IMG/VR virus record: IMGVR_UViG_3300044971_004151
Span: 1-33,283 of that record
Strand: one strand, 5' to 3'
DNA from: a virus
DNA: 33,283 bases
The notes below the pieces were generated by a model, which worked only from the letters and a program-made list of their open reading frames with translations, had not been told where the DNA came from and searched no databases. Positions 761 through 24,303 of this stretch are shown here, piece by piece. Position 1 is the stretch's first letter, and each line of letters starts with the position of its first letter. The position numbers and the translations under genes are program-made.

Positions 761-806
761 GGCTCATATAATCTTGGTAACTAAAAATTCCAAATTTATA
801 TGAGCC
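761..806 (+). promoter_or_regulatory. Inverted repeat spanning the promoter and start codon of the Ro60-like gene
   Basis: GGCTCATATAA at 761-771 and TTATATGAGCC at 796-806 are perfect 11-base inverted arms. A second 4-base stem (TTGG 774-777 with CCAA 790-793) lies inside. The left arm contains a TATAAT at 767-772 suitable as a -10 box. The right arm contains the ATG at 800-802. On a read-through transcript from the thioredoxin gene the start codon would be buried in this hairpin. On a transcript begun near 779 it would be free. It could equally be a protein operator. Confidence 0.65.
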
Positions 807-2260
807 TTATTTCTGCCTTAAGAACTGAAGACAGACTAACCGAAAATGGTATGGTCACAAATTCAACTTCTCTTAATTCATGCTTGGATTTCTTCTTCCA
901 AGCGGGTGCATATAGAAAAGCGGAAGAGTCTGATATCATAGCTTCTTTTTCTGCAGCATTTGCACAGGATCAACTAAGAGCTCTAAAGATTCTTTTCTGG
1001 GCTAGAGACGTCAGAGGCGGAGCAGGCGAGAGAAGAGTATTTCGTATTTGCATTTCACATCTTGCCAAATATCACTTACCGTATTTAATGGCTAATCTTG
1101 ATGTCATTGCAGAGTATGGCAGATGGGACGATTACTTGGTTCTATTGGGGATGCAGAATGATAAGTTATCTCAGGAGGTATCCGGCCTCATTCTTAAATC
1201 TATCAAGGAAGATAGAAATGCACTTGCTTCTAAGTGGATGCCTAGAAAGGGCACTATTGCCAACCAGCTTCGTAAGAGATGGAGAATGACACCAAAGGAG
1301 TACAGAAAACTGCTAGTTGAAACCAGCAATGTGATTGAAACCCATATGTGTGCTAAGGAGTGGACAAAGGTAAACTACTCACAGGTTCCTTCCGTGGCTG
1401 CTGCTAGATACACAGGAGCATTCATGAAGAATGATATGACCAGATATAGAGAATATCTTGTAGCTCTGGCAAATCCATCTCTTTATGAAGAAAATGTCAA
1501 AGTGAACGCATCTGCTGTTTATCCTTATGACGTTGTGAAGACTCTAAGAAGAGGAGTAGAAGAATTGGCAGTAGAACAATGGAAAGCTCTTCCTAATTAC
1601 CTAGAAGGTAACACTAAGATGATTCTTCCGGTTGTTGACGTGTCGGGTTCTATGGGATGCTCGGTATCTGATGGCAGCACATTGACCTGTATGGATGTTG
1701 CTATCTCTTTAGGGCTTTACATCTCCGAAAAAAATACTGGTGCTTTCCAGGACGCTTTTATCACATTCTCTGAGAGACCACATCTTCAATACCTAAAGGG
1801 AAATCTGAAAGAGAGGTTCGACCAGTTGGAATCAGCTGAGTGGGGTATGTCAACTAACCTAGAGTCAGTTTTTAATCTTATCCTAGATAAGGCTAAATCA
1901 GCAAATCTTGATGCTAGCGAAATGCCTCATCAGGTTATGATACTTTCGGATATGCAGTTTAATGAGGCTATCACAAATCCTTCTTTAACAGCTCACAGTA
2001 TGATTCGTGAAAAGTATGAAAAATCTGGTTACTCTATGCCAGAGATAGTTTTCTGGAATCTGCAATCAAGAGATAGAAACGTACCGGTTAGATTCGATGA
2101 GGCTGGCACTGCTTTAATCTCAGGATTCTCACCAGCTATTTTAACTTCCCTATTGAATGGAACAGGTATCACTCCGGTTTTAATTATGGACGAGACATTA
2201 AATAAACCAAGATATTCAAAAATTTCTTTGCCTAGTACTGAAACTTTTGATAACAACTAG
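800..2260 (+). CDS. Ro60/TROVE-like protein with vWA domain (DUF2828 family)
   Basis: 486 residues. The N-terminal two thirds is a helical repeat region with the DUF2828 signature RDVRGGAGERR (about residues 69-79). The C-terminal third is a von Willebrand factor A domain with an apparently intact metal site: D280-x-S282-x-S284 (DVSGSM), T352 and D384. This architecture parallels the Ro60/Rsr RNA-binding proteins (TROVE plus vWA), which hold misfolded or Y RNAs; the RNA role here is inferred from that resemblance. The start is the ATG inside the inverted repeat at 761-806. Immediately downstream lie a tandem structured RNA and a tmRNA, so the neighbourhood is RNA-themed. No signal peptide or membrane segment. 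Confidence 0.85.
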   Translation: MSLISALRTEDRLTENGMVTNSTSLNSCLDFFFQAGAYRKAEESDIIASFSAAFAQDQLRALKILFWARDVRGGAGERRVFRICISHLAKYHLPYLMANLDVIAEYGRWDDYLVLLGMQNDKLSQEVSGLILKSIKEDRNALASKWMPRKGTIANQLRKRWRMTPKEYRKLLVETSNVIETHMCAKEWTKVNYSQVPSVAAARYTGAFMKNDMTRYREYLVALANPSLYEENVKVNASAVYPYDVVKTLRRGVEELAVEQWKALPNYLEGNTKMILPVVDVSGSMGCSVSDGSTLTCMDVAISLGLYISEKNTGAFQDAFITFSERPHLQYLKGNLKERFDQLESAEWGMSTNLESVFNLILDKAKSANLDASEMPHQVMILSDMQFNEAITNPSLTAHSMIREKYEKSGYSMPEIVFWNLQSRDRNVPVRFDEAGTALISGFSPAILTSLLNGTGITPVLIMDETLNKPRYSKISLPSTETFDNN

Positions 2261-2262
2261 GA

Positions 2263-2268
2263 TATAAT
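2263..2268 (+). promoter_or_regulatory. -10 box before the tandem structured RNA
   Basis: TATAAT lies just after the stop codon of the Ro60-like gene. Initiation 6-8 bases downstream would place the RNA start near 2275, a few bases before the first repeat arm at 2283. No convincing -35 hexamer is visible, so the call rests on the perfect -10 and on the structure it precedes. Confidence 0.4.
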
Positions 2269-2276
2269 ATCTAAAT

Positions 2277-2370
2277 AAATAAGGAATCGTTTCAGCAAAA
2301 AAAATAATAAATTACAACGATTGATTATCACGCCAGAGATCGCAAGATCGAAGGCAAAAAAACCGATTCC
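2277..2370 (+). repeat. Structured RNA module, copy 1
   Basis: It begins AAATAAGG and carries the shared TTTCAGCAAA box at 2290-2299 plus a GNRA-capped inner hairpin. An alternative pairing exists: AATCGTT at 2285-2291 is exactly complementary to AACGATT at 2316-2322 as well as largely to the 3' arm at 2364-2370, so the module could switch between two folds. Confidence 0.6.
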
Positions 2371-2394
2371 GTTTTATTTTTCAGATAAGCATAG

Positions 2395-2458
2395 AAATAA
2401 GGGATTGTTTCAGCAAATTAAAAAACTATACACTTTCAAATGTAAAAACCACAATCCC
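2395..2458 (+). repeat. Structured RNA module, copy 2
   Basis: Shorter relative of copy 1, offset by 118 bases at the 5' arm. It begins AAATAAGG and has the same TTTCAGCAAA box at 2408-2417. The closing stem is GGGATTGT with ACAATCCC (8 bp). Its inner hairpin is TACA (2429-2432) with TGTA (2441-2444). It lacks the GNRA hairpin of copy 1. Confidence 0.6.
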
Positions 2459-2465
2459 GTTCCAC

Positions 2466-2495
2466 AAGACCCAGATGTAAAAGTCTGGGTTTTTT
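2466..2495 (+). terminator. Terminator of the structured RNA
   Basis: The stem ACCCAGA (2469-2475) with TCTGGGT (2484-2490) and an 8-base loop is followed by six T. It separates the structured RNA from the tmRNA. Confidence 0.75.
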
Positions 2496-4490: not shown

Positions 4491-5174
4491 TTATTTATCT
4501 TTGTTAGGACTTGCTCCATATTTAACCCCTAGAATAGTTCCAACGATACTGAAGCTATTTGTTAATAGAATACCAAACATATTACTCCAAGTGGAACCAA
4601 TAATATCCGTATCCATTCCTATTGTCATGGAATAAACGTATATGCCAGTCGTAATACACCCAACACCTATGATTACATAAAGAGCAACCCTAACAATATT
4701 ATTTATTAACTCAAACTGAGTTTTCTTTTGTATTAAATCCAAATTGTTTTCCGCTTCGTTTTTAGCGTTTTCTGCAATGACCCTTGCTTGTTCAGATTGT
4801 TTCATCGCATCAACAAGCTCAGCACCTATCTTTTCATTTTCTTTTTTCCATTCAAGAAGTTCTGAGTTTTGGCTTTCAATTTGATTCTTTTGGTCCTCCA
4901 TACTTGTTAGAGTATTCTGGAGTTCCTCCACCATTCTTTGATTTTCTTCATTTAGCTCAGTTAAGTCTTTGTTCTGAACTTGTACCTGTTTAGTTATCTC
5001 CAAACGTTTACGTCTAGTTAACCCATCCTTTTCAATACAAGTTTTAAGATACTCTTTAAACTCTTCGTCGTCTTGAGCGTCTATCAATTTAGTGATATTA
5101 CCTTCAAGACCGATGTTCTTGGTCTTGAAAGTTTCAAGCAATATCTTCTTTGTATCTTTATCTAGAACAATCAT
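4491..5174 (-). CDS. Coiled-coil protein with two C-terminal membrane helices
   Basis: 227 residues. A small N-terminal region of about 50 residues is followed by a long coiled coil (about 55-150, rich in Glu, Gln, Asn and Lys). Membrane helices lie near 162-182 and 198-218, and the end GTILGVKYGASPNKDK resembles the C terminus of holin-type proteins (GxxxGxYxGxS). Its ATG shares one base with the stop of the receiver gene upstream, so the two are made together. The cytosolic coil could dock the receiver and pass a signal to the membrane; this is inference from order and architecture. Confidence 0.85.
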   Translation of the reverse strand: MIVLDKDTKKILLETFKTKNIGLEGNITKLIDAQDDEEFKEYLKTCIEKDGLTRRKRLEITKQVQVQNKDLTELNEENQRMVEELQNTLTSMEDQKNQIESQNSELLEWKKENEKIGAELVDAMKQSEQARVIAENAKNEAENNLDLIQKKTQFELINNIVRVALYVIIGVGCITTGIYVYSMTIGMDTDIIGSTWSNMFGILLTNSFSIVGTILGVKYGASPNKDK

Positions 5175-5605
5175 TACTTATAAACTTTGAAAGGAGCAGT
5201 TCTATTTCTATACCCGTCGTAGTCCTTTTTAAATTCCTCGAGTCTTGGTTCGATATCATCAGACTTAATAATCCAAAACTGAGCACCAGCCTGAAGAGCT
5301 TTAGCTTGTTCTTCAGGTTCGTTACTTGAAGAGATAATACCAATTACCACGTGGTTACCATATTCAAAGTTAACCTTACGAATGAGCTCAATACCATCAA
5401 AGGATGAACCTATAATGTTTAAATCCACAAACACACACTCGGGTCTTCCGTTTGGATCTTTTTGCCAGTCAGCAAATAGCTTGGCAGCTTCATCAGAGCT
5501 ATTTAAACTCTTCAATGACAGTGTAATGTCCAGCAGTGAGCAGCTATCTTCAAAAACTAGATGAAAAAGATTTTCATCGTCGACTAATAAAATTGAATCT
5601 ATCAT
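5174..5605 (-). CDS. Stand-alone response-regulator receiver domain
   Basis: 143 residues, a single CheY-like domain with no DNA-binding output. Conserved residues are present: acidic pair D9-D10 (LLVDDEN), phospho-acceptor D61 in VFVDLNI, switch Ser near residue 92 (IISSS) and K114 (IIKSDD). It lies eight bases after a histidine kinase gene and overlaps the coiled-coil membrane gene by one base. The likely output is therefore protein-protein, perhaps to that neighbour, rather than direct control of transcription. Confidence 0.92.
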   Translation of the reverse strand: MIDSILLVDDENLFHLVFEDSCSLLDITLSLKSLNSSDEAAKLFADWQKDPNGRPECVFVDLNIIGSSFDGIELIRKVNFEYGNHVVIGIISSSNEPEEQAKALQAGAQFWIIKSDDIEPRLEEFKKDYDGYRNRTAPFKVYK

Positions 5606-5613
5606 TTTTTTCT

Positions 5614-6936
5614 TTATTTTATTTTTATTTTCATCCTGGTCCCACTTTCAATTTTTTCACAACTCAATTTAAAACCATGTTCTTCTAATATTGCAACACA
5701 TATGTTCAATCCAAGACCCTTCTCGTCACCAGTGACATCAGCCTTCTTTGAATATTTTGTTAAATGTTTTTCAAATTGTTTTTGTGAGAATCCTCTGCCG
5801 TTGTCCTCAACTATTAAATATTCTTCCTCGTTATATATTTTAACCTTTTTAGATTCGCTATCGTTATATGACAAGCCATTCTTAATTAAGTTCTCAACCG
5901 CGTTACAGAATAAAGTCTCATTTACTTCCAGGTCACCCAAGTTAGCTATCTCAACCTGTGAACTATATGAATTTGGTGATACGTATTTCCAAATCAAATC
6001 TTTAGCGTTAACCACAGATTTATTTAATACAACATTTTGTTTAACAAGATTAGTGAATTCATATACACTCTTATAAACTCTCTGGGTATGACTCAATCCC
6101 TCTTTAACCATCTTAAGTGCCCCTTCGATCTTTAATCTTTGGATGTCCTCAGCGGTTAATCTTTTTTCTAATGAACTAATACCCCTTGGCATATATGTGT
6201 TGATACCTGAGTGCATGTCATGCCGAATGATTCTTGCCGCATGCTCCAAATAGCTGTTCTTCTTAGCAATATCATTAATCTGTTGTTCAATTTCAACATC
6301 TTGTACATTTATTCTTTTTCTCTGTAAAACAACAGCTAACATTAAACCGAACAAAACTAAAACACCTAAAGAGCTATAGAGATATTTCTTTAAGGTTTCT
6401 CTTTCTTTTTCTAAATCAGTTTTCTCGTGTATTAAGTTTCCATTCTCATCTGTTAAGTCACCAGTCTCCAAAGTTAAACCAATAATATTCTTTTCTTTAC
6501 CTAATGAACCGATTGTATTTTCTTTGGATTTAATAAGTTCTTCATTTCTAACCGCTTGAGCCAATAGTGAATCTCGCTCAGCAGTAAGTTTAGCAAGTTT
6601 ATTATCAATTTGAGCTAATATATTTTTCAAATTTTCTTTAGGTAAATCACTATATGAATTTGGTAAATCTTCCATGAATTTAACATCCTCAGTGATACTT
6701 GCTAAATCCCCCGCTGAAAGTTTAGTGACATCAACAGGTTCTGGCTCTGGTTCTGGAGAAACCCAAGTGGTAATAATTTCTTGTATACTCATAGCAGAAA
6801 CTTGTAAAGTATCCAGATCATCATTTGTCCACGATGTGTCTATCGCATCAACGATAGTATCTTTATAACTAACTTCTTGCGAATATGAACTTGATGTCAC
6901 AAGGATAGCTGAAAGTAAGAGTATCATCTTTTTCAT
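5614..6936 (-). CDS. Exported-sensor histidine kinase
   Basis: 440 residues. A cleavable-looking signal peptide (1-20) is followed by a periplasmic region with a PEPEPEP hinge (61-67) and a coiled coil (about 100-185). One membrane helix lies at 187-205, then a linker. The kinase core has an atypical H-box, RHDMHSGINTYMPRG (phospho-His candidate H239), an N-box VENLIKNGLSYN, a G1 box DNGRG and a G2 box GLGLN. The core is closely similar to the kinase encoded at 7535-9124, so they are sister genes with different sensors. It overlaps the upstream gene by four bases and precedes the receiver. It probably senses an envelope state and phosphorylates the receiver. Confidence 0.93.
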   Translation of the reverse strand: MKKMILLLSAILVTSSSYSQEVSYKDTIVDAIDTSWTNDDLDTLQVSAMSIQEIITTWVSPEPEPEPVDVTKLSAGDLASITEDVKFMEDLPNSYSDLPKENLKNILAQIDNKLAKLTAERDSLLAQAVRNEELIKSKENTIGSLGKEKNIIGLTLETGDLTDENGNLIHEKTDLEKERETLKKYLYSSLGVLVLFGLMLAVVLQRKRINVQDVEIEQQINDIAKKNSYLEHAARIIRHDMHSGINTYMPRGISSLEKRLTAEDIQRLKIEGALKMVKEGLSHTQRVYKSVYEFTNLVKQNVVLNKSVVNAKDLIWKYVSPNSYSSQVEIANLGDLEVNETLFCNAVENLIKNGLSYNDSESKKVKIYNEEEYLIVEDNGRGFSQKQFEKHLTKYSKKADVTGDEKGLGLNICVAILEEHGFKLSCEKIESGTRMKIKIK

Positions 6937-7538
6937 TTCTTTAATAAGTTTTTATTTTTCCAAATCCTTTGTTCATATAATCTAAGCTCTTTTTCAAAAT
7001 CTTTAAATTGAATACCTTTAAAATAGTCAACAGCGGGGTAATATTCTTGATTATATTGTTTTTTTAATTCATTCCAATATTCATATTCCTTTGGAGTCAT
7101 TCTAATCAATTGAATTGTTTCTCCATAATCAATGCTGGTCATGTTGTAATCGTCTAGGTTTATGAAGTAGATGGAATTGTAAGGTGGGATTGTGTATACC
7201 AAACTTGGTCCAGCCGCCAACTCAAATAATATAAGATTAATTTCATCCGCCCATTTGTAAGTTGTGTCAGCAACATATTGAATACTATCAACCGTACCGT
7301 TAAGTTTAGTTACCGCGTTAGTTAAACTGTCAATCTTTTTATTTTGTGCCAGTATTTTTTTATTCTGTTCTCTTATAATTTTTCTTTGAGTATCGATTAC
7401 CTTATTAACATCTAAAGATTGCTTGATAGTTAAAATAACAACAGAGTCACCCTTATAGATTGTTTGAATTGGGTATTTTAACTGTCCCGTAGTAACAGCG
7501 GAAATCATTAAAAAGATTAAGGTTATTAGTGTTTTCAT
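6933..7538 (-). CDS. Secreted coiled-coil protein between the two kinases
   Basis: 201 residues. Signal peptide MKTLITLIFLMISAVTTGQ, then a short segment YKGDSVVILTIKQ, a coiled coil (about 45-85, with REQNKKILAQNKK) and a C-terminal region rich in Tyr, Lys and Glu. No lipobox and no later membrane helix. It overlaps both kinase genes by four bases, so it is co-translated with them. Its exported coil parallels the periplasmic coil of the 5614-6936 kinase, and a ligand or co-sensor role is plausible. The signal-plus-coil plan also resembles spanins; I cannot separate the two from sequence. Confidence 0.8.
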   Translation of the reverse strand: MKTLITLIFLMISAVTTGQLKYPIQTIYKGDSVVILTIKQSLDVNKVIDTQRKIIREQNKKILAQNKKIDSLTNAVTKLNGTVDSIQYVADTTYKWADEINLILFELAAGPSLVYTIPPYNSIYFINLDDYNMTSIDYGETIQLIRMTPKEYEYWNELKKQYNQEYYPAVDYFKGIQFKDFEKELRLYEQRIWKNKNLLKK

Positions 7539-9124
7539 TTGAATTTAATTTTCATTTTAGTTCCTATTTCGTTTTTCTCACACGTAATTTGAAACTTATG
7601 TTCTTCCAAAATTGCCACACAAATATTTAATCCTAAACCAGTCCCTGATTCTTTCTGACCCTCTTTTCTTGTGTAAGGCTTAGATAAATGATTGAAATCA
7701 TCCTGGGTAATTCCTCTACCGTTATCCTGTATATAGATTGTGTTTTCGTCTGAATAGAGCTTAACGAATTTTGAATCCGAATCGTTATATTTTAAACCAT
7801 TTCTGATCAGGTTGTCTAGTGCAGTACAGAACAGAGGCTCGTTTACTTCTATGATTGGTAGAGTGTCGTCTAGTATAACCTGACTAATGTAAGCTGTAGA
7901 TGACAGATAATCATGCAGTATGTACTTAATGCTGCATTCAGCTTTATTCAGAACAACATCCTTTTTAACCAGATTGGTGAACTCGTAAACACCTTTATAA
8001 ACTTTCTGAGAATGTTTAAGACCCTCCTTAATCATTTTAAGTGGGGCTTCGATTTTAAGATTAGTAATATCCTCTTGTGTCAATCTCCTTTCCAATGAGT
8101 TAACACCTCTTGGCATATAAGTGTTAATCCCGGAATGCATATCATGTCTTAGTATTTTAGCGGCGTGTTCTAAATAGGTGTTTTTCTTTTCAATCTCCTT
8201 TTTTTGTTCGTAAGATTGGGTGACGTCTGTAGCAATTTTCATAACACGATAAATCTTGCCGTCAGTGCCAATAATAGGATTGTAAGTGGCTTGTAAATAA
8301 ACTAAAGACCCATCTTTTTTAACTCTAGAGATCTCACCAGAAAATAACATTCCCGCCCTTAATTTTTCCCAAAAGAGGGAATAGTCTTCACTTTTTTCAT
8401 ATTCAGCATCTATAAAAATTCTATGATGCTTTCCAACTACCTCATCCTGTGAGAAATATCCCATAGTTTCTAAAAACAAATTGTTAGCAAAAATAATGTT
8501 TCCGTCTAAATCAAACTCAATAACAGCATTGGATTTGTTGATAGCATTCATTCTATTACGAATTTCTGCTTCTTTTTTCTTAAGCTCCGTGATGTCTTGC
8601 CTGATAGATGAAAAACCATCTAATCTCCCATCAGTTCCAAATCTTGCCCTGATGTATGTGTCAACGTAATATAAACTGCCATCTTTGGCTTTATTAGTTA
8701 CCACGTCATTCCATATCTCACCCTTCATAACCGTCTCATACATCTTACCCCAATATCCATCAGCTTGTGTTCCAGAATTAACTATTGAGTGGTCCTTCCC
8801 GATTACTTCTTCAAGCTTCCAACCTGATACTTGTTCAAACTTATCATTAACATAAGTTATTTTACCTTTCCTATCTGTAATCGATACGATTGCCGCCTTA
8901 TTAATAAATTTATCTGTCTCGTCAAGTCTTTTAGTTTGGCTTTCCCTTACCTCTCTGATTATTAAGTAAAAGAGGGGTACGAAAAGAAGAAAGCAGGAGT
9001 ATTCTATCCCTCTTGTTAATCTTGTTGACTCTGTAATCTCGAATAAAACTGCTGTTTTAATAATAAAAAAAACAGACATGATTAATGAGCTGAGAAATAA
9101 ATATACTTTTGTTTTTTTATTCAT
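7535..9124 (-). CDS. Membrane PAS-PAS histidine kinase
   Basis: 529 residues. Two membrane helices (about 7-30 and 42-60), then two PAS domains (about 66-180 and 185-305; each ends with the D[IV]T motif, RQDITELKKK and ATDVTQ). The kinase core has H-box RHDMHSGINTYMPRG (H327), N-box LDNLIRNGLKYN (N438), G1 DNGRG (from 467) and G2 GTGLGLN. All catalytic boxes appear intact. PAS domains commonly sense redox state, oxygen or small molecules. It is the first gene of the operon; upstream on its strand TATATAAT precedes the ATG by a few bases. The core nearly duplicates that of the second kinase. Confidence 0.95.
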   Translation of the reverse strand: MNKKTKVYLFLSSLIMSVFFIIKTAVLFEITESTRLTRGIEYSCFLLFVPLFYLIIREVRESQTKRLDETDKFINKAAIVSITDRKGKITYVNDKFEQVSGWKLEEVIGKDHSIVNSGTQADGYWGKMYETVMKGEIWNDVVTNKAKDGSLYYVDTYIRARFGTDGRLDGFSSIRQDITELKKKEAEIRNRMNAINKSNAVIEFDLDGNIIFANNLFLETMGYFSQDEVVGKHHRIFIDAEYEKSEDYSLFWEKLRAGMLFSGEISRVKKDGSLVYLQATYNPIIGTDGKIYRVMKIATDVTQSYEQKKEIEKKNTYLEHAAKILRHDMHSGINTYMPRGVNSLERRLTQEDITNLKIEAPLKMIKEGLKHSQKVYKGVYEFTNLVKKDVVLNKAECSIKYILHDYLSSTAYISQVILDDTLPIIEVNEPLFCTALDNLIRNGLKYNDSDSKFVKLYSDENTIYIQDNGRGITQDDFNHLSKPYTRKEGQKESGTGLGLNICVAILEEHKFQITCEKNEIGTKMKIKFK

Positions 9125-12734: not shown

Positions 12735-13511
12735 ATGAGAGCCTTTCAATACCCTTCAGCAGCAATAAAGGACACTAAAGAGTGTCTCATTAACCATGGA
12801 TATGTCGTAAAGACCGAAAGATGGCAGGGTATACCTTCTCCAGATGATATGTTTGAATTACTAGGACATTCTTTGAGGTTTGTGATTCCAGAAACGGAAG
12901 ATGTACTTATAGAAGAAGTGAGACCAAATCTACCATGGGCGAAAGAGCATTTTGAAGAAAGAGTTAGCGGGCTACCCCTAAATCCGCCACCCTCCCACGT
13001 TAGATGGCCATTTGCCCAGAAGTCAAATGAACAATTCGGGGGAAATGAAAAATTTAGCCACAGCTACCCAGAGAGAATTTGGCCAAAATTTACATCAGAT
13101 AGCTCTAACGAAATAATGGGTGGAATAAGATACGATTACGGGGATTTCAACGATGTAGTGGATCTGATGGAGAGAGAACCTTTTACAAGACAAGCATTTC
13201 TTCCTATTTGGTTTCCCGAGGATACAGGATCTGCTCACGGAGAAAGAGTACCATGTACTATAGGATATCACTTCATTAGAAGAGGCGACCATATGCACAT
13301 AGTTTATTATATTAGATCATGTGATTACATCAGACATTTTCGAGACGATATCTATTTAGCCTGTATGAAATTATATTGGCTTTTAGATAGACTCAAAGAA
13401 AAAGATTATGAAGCATGGAAAGACGTGAAGCCGGGATGGTACACTATGCACATTACTTCTTTACACTGTTTCAATAAGGAGAAGGGTATTTTAAAACAGT
13501 CTAGATTATGA
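12735..13511 (+). CDS. Thymidylate-synthase-fold protein, possible pyrimidine hydroxymethylase
   Basis: 258 residues, similar in size to thymidylate synthase and dCMP hydroxymethylase. The C-terminal half has TS landmarks: nucleophile C174 in RVPCTIGYHF (TS: PPCHYGFQ), phosphate-binding RSCD at 194-197, then HFRDDIYLA where TS has PFNIASY, and MHITSLHCF near the C terminus. The Asn that reads dUMP in TS is replaced by Arg/Asp here. dCMP hydroxymethylases carry Asp at that site, so a changed base or cofactor use is plausible. The N-terminal third is unlike TS. A true ThyA is encoded at 29620, so this copy likely has another job. The link to modified bases is inference. Confidence 0.75.
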   Translation: MRAFQYPSAAIKDTKECLINHGYVVKTERWQGIPSPDDMFELLGHSLRFVIPETEDVLIEEVRPNLPWAKEHFEERVSGLPLNPPPSHVRWPFAQKSNEQFGGNEKFSHSYPERIWPKFTSDSSNEIMGGIRYDYGDFNDVVDLMEREPFTRQAFLPIWFPEDTGSAHGERVPCTIGYHFIRRGDHMHIVYYIRSCDYIRHFRDDIYLACMKLYWLLDRLKEKDYEAWKDVKPGWYTMHITSLHCFNKEKGILKQSRL

Positions 13512-23742: not shown

Positions 23743-24303
23743 ATGAACATCTCACAAGAGGAATGCCTGGAGCTGATAGAAAAGTGCAAAAAAAAATGCA
23801 GGAATTCGGAGGAAAGACTCTATAAAATCCTAAAGGATACAATTCATTCGGTATGTAGAAAATATGCGGGTGATCAACAGGAAGCTGAGGATATTGCGCA
23901 GGAGTGCTTTATAAAAGTATTTACAAAAATCGGTGAGTATAGAGGTGATGGTTCCTTTCAAGGCTGGGTCAGAAGGATAGCAGTTAATCTTTCCATTACT
24001 GAATACACCAAAAGAAGAAAGATTGGCATACATGAAAACATTGAGAGCAGATTTGATATCCAAGACGACTCATTTGCTGAAATAGATTTCGGATGTACAC
24101 AGGAAGAGATAGTCCAATTTATAGGGGATCTGCCAAAGGGTTATGGGCAAGTTTTAAAACTTTATTTCTTGGACGGGTATAAGCATAAAGAAATATCCGA
24201 GATGCTTGGAATAAGCACGAACACTTCAAAGACCCAGCTTTTAAGAGCAAGAAATGCAATCAGAAAAAATATGGAGAAAAAGGGATACTTTTTTAACTTT
24301 TAG
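23743..24303 (+). CDS. ECF-type RNA polymerase sigma factor
   Basis: 186 residues. Region 2 has the core-binding AEDIAQECFIKVFTKI and the -10-reading segment GSFQGWVRRIAVNLSITEY. Region 4 ends with HKEISEMLGISTNTSKTQL, the helix-turn-helix for the -35 site. Region 3 is absent, as in ECF factors, and the look is that of Bacteroidota ECF proteins. It may direct the host polymerase to the short-leader promoters described here. No anti-sigma gene is next to it. A 143-base gap follows with no clear gene. Confidence 0.93.
   Translation: MNISQEECLELIEKCKKKCRNSEERLYKILKDTIHSVCRKYAGDQQEAEDIAQECFIKVFTKIGEYRGDGSFQGWVRRIAVNLSITEYTKRRKIGIHENIESRFDIQDDSFAEIDFGCTQEEIVQFIGDLPKGYGQVLKLYFLDGYKHKEISEMLGISTNTSKTQLLRARNAIRKNMEKKGYFFNF

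Follow-up and report, generated by a model that had tools for sequence, protein, structure and literature searches.

The stretch of DNA considered here (the window) is 33,283 nucleotides in length and corresponds to positions 1 to 33,283 of the IMG/VR virus record IMGVR_UViG_3300044971_004151. Near its start, a plus-strand gene (800..2260) encodes a DUF2828 and DUF7788 protein of 486 residues (Pfam PF11443 and PF25043), for which a Ro60 fold comprising a helical-repeat part and a vWA domain is predicted. Further along the same strand lies a phage transfer-messenger RNA (tmRNA) carrying the tag DNSYVESAEFALAA (2510-2876; Rfam RF00023, 76.8 bits; 2510-2874 by ARAGORN). The element under study, a putative Y-RNA-like noncoding RNA locus with two modules, a terminator, and a promoter-like site (2275-2495, plus strand), is situated between this gene and its tRNA-like neighbour. 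An earlier note, made from the sequence alone, had drawn attention to the element but missed both the tmRNA and the wide spread of the RNA family described below.

Architecture of the RNA locus

Each module consists of a 7-bp end-closing stem followed by a box of the [U/A]CAGCAAA type. In module 1 (2283..2370, plus strand), the stem is formed by GGAATCG (2283-2289) and CGATTCC (2364-2370), with the box at 2290-2299; in module 2 (2401..2458, plus strand), it is formed by GGGATTG (2401-2407) and CAATCCC (2452-2458), with the box at 2408-2417. The two modules have in common AAATAAGG (2277-2284 and 2395-2402) and the ten-base box TTTCAGCAAA, and all of these elements lie where the earlier note had placed them. 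Between the two stems, double changes at two base pairs leave pairing intact, which the note had read as selection on RNA structure. The loop of module 1 is variable and contains an inner hairpin capped by GCAA, and that of module 2 is short, A-rich, and nearly unstructured. Folding z-scores against shuffled sequence are -4.3 for module 1 and -3.8 for module 2, with a further score of -4.2 at the RNA locus, and the modules score 66.1 and 64.3 bits, respectively, with the covariance model R1, of which both are training members.

The -10 box and terminator that had been assigned to the unit also hold up. TATAAT (2263-2268) is accompanied by a matching upstream box, GAAACTTTT (2240-2248), which sits inside the 3′ end of the DUF2828 gene, and together they make up a promoter-like site (2240..2268, plus strand). 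The same GAAACTTTT...TATAAT pair recurs at 743 and 2905, ahead of the gene at 800 and an open reading frame at 2951, and a similar pair lies upstream of the RNA in the relatives L159, L164, L172, L169, and L192. The site also resembles one in phage PAU, and a blastn comparison of the region with phages returned this promoter-like match and nothing else. Sequence and folding place an intrinsic terminator hairpin with a T run at about 2467-2495 (plus strand).

Only one open reading frame (2321-2608) extends over the RNA region, and its frame is shifted by indels in L001, a relative that is 94% identical in the neighbouring protein; the interval is therefore not coding. A preQ1 riboswitch match (13.3 bits) was rejected as weak.

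An RNA family linked to DUF2828

L001 was at first the sole relative of the locus; a RimK-like gene upstream in its contig then led to 46 viral loci, mostly of jumbo phages. Among these loci, tandem modules follow DUF2828 immediately or after one small gene, and arrangements of two or more modules are common among the phage loci. The window element is a member of an undescribed RNA family. The stems of its relatives differ in sequence (for example GGAATCT/AGATTCC, GGCTTC/GAAGCC, and GGTTTC/GAAACC), and across 24 aligned modules, pairing is intact in 168 of 168 cells of the 7-bp stem, against at most 58% in slid-partner controls, and double changes occur at five of the seven pairs. A 47-module set is 99.7% paired, with covariation at all seven pairs—percentages that are inflated, because the first module searches required a complementary stem, and further inflated by the fitting of alignment A5 to the model. 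The module positions, later profile matches, and the RF01414 results given below are independent of the stem-requiring searches, and RNAalifold recovers the 7-bp end stem unaided. RNAalifold gives no support for a conserved inner structure in module 1: on alignment A2, it yields the closing stem only, the module-1 alignment A8 not having been folded separately.

Conservation in sequence is concentrated at the base of the module: the first base of the stem is an almost invariant G, the flanks read AAGG...CCUG, CAGCA is present in 47 of 47 modules, and the unpaired CAGCAAA box is almost invariant. One clade has a second module that surrounds a multi-hairpin domain of 110-180 bases (L187 20668-20864; L179 15981-16160).

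The covariance-model search beside DUF2828 genes that the earlier note had proposed recovered homologous RNA. Among 40 whole related jumbo-phage records, strong R1 matches occur in 17 of the 18 with DUF2828 and in none of the 22 without it (Fisher P 2e-10), the gene of the eighteenth being cut by the contig end. All 23 distant uncultured loci with usable flank carry modules beside DUF2828 on the strand of the gene, two of them with weak scores only. Modules found with R1 or its refined version R2 in distant phages lie upstream of DUF2828 in most and downstream in others, on the same strand as the gene. The strongest match among 50 records intended as controls came from G064, which proved to have a DUF2828 gene adjoining the modules, an unplanned validation of the linkage. 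Among cultured or named phages with DUF2828, 13 of 16 have R2 matches at E<=0.1, and modules adjoin the gene in Listeria LP-048, Staphylococcus 6ec, Enterococcus PEF1, Aeromonas LAh_6, and Mycobacterium Rumpelstiltskin; the family occurs in phages of both Gram-negative and Gram-positive hosts. No match better than E 0.25 was found in T4, T5 (AY543070), phiKZ, or PAU. A loose scan for the TTTCAGCAAA pattern gave matches that were mostly due to chance, one of which, in L143, adjoined tRNAs. A Pistol ribozyme above the Rfam cut-off (42.8 bits) was also observed at 2107-2175 of L017, approximately 380 bases upstream of its modules and DUF2828.

The predicted Ro60-fold protein and a Y-RNA-like reading

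The AlphaFold2 model of the DUF2828 protein (predicted local distance difference test score of 81.8) predicts the full Ro60 fold, in which a ring of helical repeats is followed by the vWA domain. Its top ten VIA matches are Ro60, TROVE, or Rsr entries (Z 17.8-13.8 over 380-416 residues) and include Ro60 of Thermus phage phiLo, human Ro60 complexes, Ro autoantigen crystal structures, and Deinococcus Rsr; the next entry matches the vWA domain only (Z 12.3 over 171 residues). The best Foldseek match is Ro60/TROVE (E 8e-8). The relationship in architecture to Ro60 proposed in the earlier note is accordingly supported over about 400 residues of the predicted model. By sequence, Pfam reports DUF2828 and DUF7788 only, with no TROVE family, and the profile reaches TROVE chains only at E 0.06. 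Judging from the modelled fold, the protein may well bind RNA. In mycobacteriophages, DUF2828 already carries the annotation 'Ro-like RNA binding protein'. DUF2828 'Ro-like' genes are present in at least 681 sequenced phage records, and RNA-repair genes lie near DUF2828 in Listeria LP-048 (RtcB) and in CBB and Munch (RNA ligase). The literature searched names no RNA partner of phage DUF2828.

The bacterial Y RNA YrlA has a tRNA-like domain and is encoded with the Ro60 homologue Rsr (PMC7790460). The phage loci resemble the YrlA (RF02553)/Rsr system in that the RNA gene adjoins the gene for a protein of (predicted) Ro60 fold, an end-joining stem carries a modular effector loop, several members possess a tRNA-like domain, and RNA-repair or tRNA genes are found nearby. 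They differ in that, by sequence, the phage protein belongs to DUF2828 and not to TROVE, the handle is defined by the CAGCAAA box, and two or more tandem modules are common. The tRNA-like character takes two forms: a tRNA-Thr lies inside a module of G064, and the long loops of PEF1, dune, and S13 contain a T-arm, a capped acceptor stem, and a D-arm, which is a permuted tRNA-like order. Two places in Enterococcus phage PEF1 match the Rfam YrlA model below its cut-off, one (E 1.6e-4) inside a module found with R2 and the other (E 5e-8) with the same stem-and-ACAGCAA form; the best score, 47.8 bits, falls short of the curated 69 bits. Vertebrate Y RNAs (RF00019) and Ro60 share with the phage system a stem built from the ends, a variable loop, and a partner whose fold is, by prediction, the same (VIA Z 17.8 against 1yvp), whereas the phage modules have no match to the Rfam Y_RNA model.

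The window element is encoded with a gene for a Ro60-type protein, as predicted from its fold, and its end stems enclose variable loops. The linkage to DUF2828, the predicted protein fold, and this architecture support the suggestion, first made in the earlier note, of a Y-RNA-like partner: the window RNA is probably Y-RNA-like and noncoding, comprises two modules, and acts together with the adjacent DUF2828 protein of predicted Ro60 fold. Once expressed, each module would offer the protein a handle that combines the end-joining stem with the unpaired CAGCAAA box. Beyond it, the loop would serve as a variable effector part, represented by a hairpin in module 1, a nearly unstructured loop in module 2, and a tRNA mimic, as in YrlA, in other phages. 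By analogy with Rsr and its Y RNA in Deinococcus, the RNA might control access to the surface with which the Ro60-like protein binds RNA; alternatively, it might tether the protein to a partner such as a nuclease or an RNA-repair enzyme. During infection, tRNA-like RNAs would in this way be quality-controlled, repaired, or protected, and a role in their quality control or repair is likely by analogy and in view of the tRNA and RNA-repair neighbourhood. Phage DUF2828 genes would thereby gain a candidate RNA partner with a simple, mutable sequence code, and tRNA mimicry, together with a protein fold predicted to be common to both, would connect the phage system with Y RNAs.

Several observations weigh against this interpretation, in addition to the inflated pairing percentages. 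The window modules match no Rfam Y RNA model, and no tRNA mimicry is seen in their own loops. To our knowledge, the phage box is unlike the Ro60-binding sequence of vertebrate Y RNAs. Three phages with DUF2828 (CPX, phiM19, and Alsa_1) have no R2 match at E<=0.1, and in several others (KVP40, Munch, CBB, and DLP_6), the best modules are far from the gene.

In most loci, the modules immediately precede or follow DUF2828 on its strand, as would also be expected of a cis-acting element, such as a leader or tail that lets the protein autoregulate its mRNA. Such an element is improbable, however, given that the window RNA has its own promoter-like site and terminator, that the RNA precedes the gene in some phages and follows it in others, and that in KVP40, S13, and Munch, it is found far away between the genes of tRNA arrays. 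The tmRNA that follows the RNA in the window, modules 1-7 nt from tRNAs in Munch and a 735-kb phage, and modules between tRNAs in S13 raise a different explanation, in which the RNA belongs to the tRNA and tmRNA genes, acts within phage tRNA arrays as a spacer or a signal for processing, and is only indirectly linked to DUF2828. We consider this slightly less probable still: relatives with a tmRNA but no DUF2828 (L160, L161, L162, and L170) have no module, T4, T5, and phiKZ have no match better than E 0.37, and many modules are without a neighbouring tRNA. A role as a trans-acting antisense RNA or sponge, its CAGCAAA box pairing to host or phage mRNA with the DUF2828 protein at most a chaperone, is just as improbable, for although the box is seed-like in being unpaired and almost invariant, it is the same in phages whose hosts are unrelated and would hardly have one mRNA target in common, and its constant attachment to the end stem suggests that a protein recognizes it.

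Resemblance to Dictyostelium Class I RNAs

Rfam model RF01414 describes the Class I RNAs of Dictyostelium; it was built from amoebae and is hence independent of the phage-trained models. It gives below-cut-off matches to phage modules, several at 25-31 bits, and the best of them (37.1 bits, E 2.6e-6) lies in the 735-kb phage, six bases upstream of a tRNA. Neither this match nor that of window module 2 (17.0 bits) reaches the curated score of 41.5 bits. The best RF01414 match lies within 1.5 kb of DUF2828 in 18 of 29 DUF2828 records, compared with an expected 2.1 (P 1e-16).

In the definition of Kjellin et al., the end stem of a Class I RNA has an invariant G and is flanked by AAG and CUGU, with an 11-nt motif next to the 5′ stem; such RNAs are reported to be confined to Dictyostelia, with none outside (PMC7919456). 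Column counts in alignments A2 and A5 show the same features in the phage modules: an almost invariant 5′ G, AAG...CUG flanks, and a UUACAGCAA-type motif by the 5′ stem. Both groups share a short end-joining stem with an invariant or almost invariant first G, the AAG...CUG(U) flanks, and a conserved motif, [C]CUUACAGCAA, beside the 5′ stem, with the rest variable (PMC7919456). The phage modules differ in occurring in tandem beside DUF2828 or tRNAs, and the reported partner in Dictyostelium is Rnp1A, an RRM protein. The DUSE promoter element of Class I RNAs belongs to Dictyostelia and would not be expected in a phage. A literature search on Ro60 together with Dictyostelium produced nothing useful.

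The resemblance between phage and amoeba may reflect common descent or convergence on a similar protein surface. We tentatively propose, while regarding it as somewhat short of an even chance, that phage DUF2828 RNAs, bacterial YrlA-type Y RNAs, and amoebal Class I RNAs form one family sharing a stem-plus-CAGCAA handle for Ro60-fold proteins. If so, the amoebal RNAs would be Y-RNA-like partners of DUF2828 or another Ro60-like protein; for the mechanism of Class I RNAs, which are tied to multicellular development, the phage RNAs thus offer a concrete hypothesis.

The tmRNA and other neighbouring features

A role for the RNA as leader of the tmRNA was considered and dropped, because the relatives that have a tmRNA without DUF2828 lack the RNA. 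Relatives' tmRNA tags (EVEYAYAA and EEVELAVAA) are quite different from that of the window. Below-threshold alpha_tmRNA matches (E 0.0009-0.025) occur at the same place in L004, L007, L009, and L017, namely the 3′ end of DUF2828. Extra modules were seen in the tRNA arrays of L179 (20953-21021) and L190 (20625-20690), both of which also have a pair beside DUF2828.

Elsewhere in the window, what looks like a phage two-component signalling set is encoded close together on the minus strand (5174-9124): a histidine-kinase-like ATPase and proteins resembling a response regulator and a PAS-domain kinase. The protein encoded at 23743-24303 resembles, by eye, an ECF-type sigma factor. The homologue of the window gene at 12735-13511 is interrupted by approximately 1.1 kb in L159 (19350-20458), and likewise in L171, possibly by an intron or homing element. 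In L158 (2356-4031), a DNA polymerase gene is seemingly split by an intein-like insertion.
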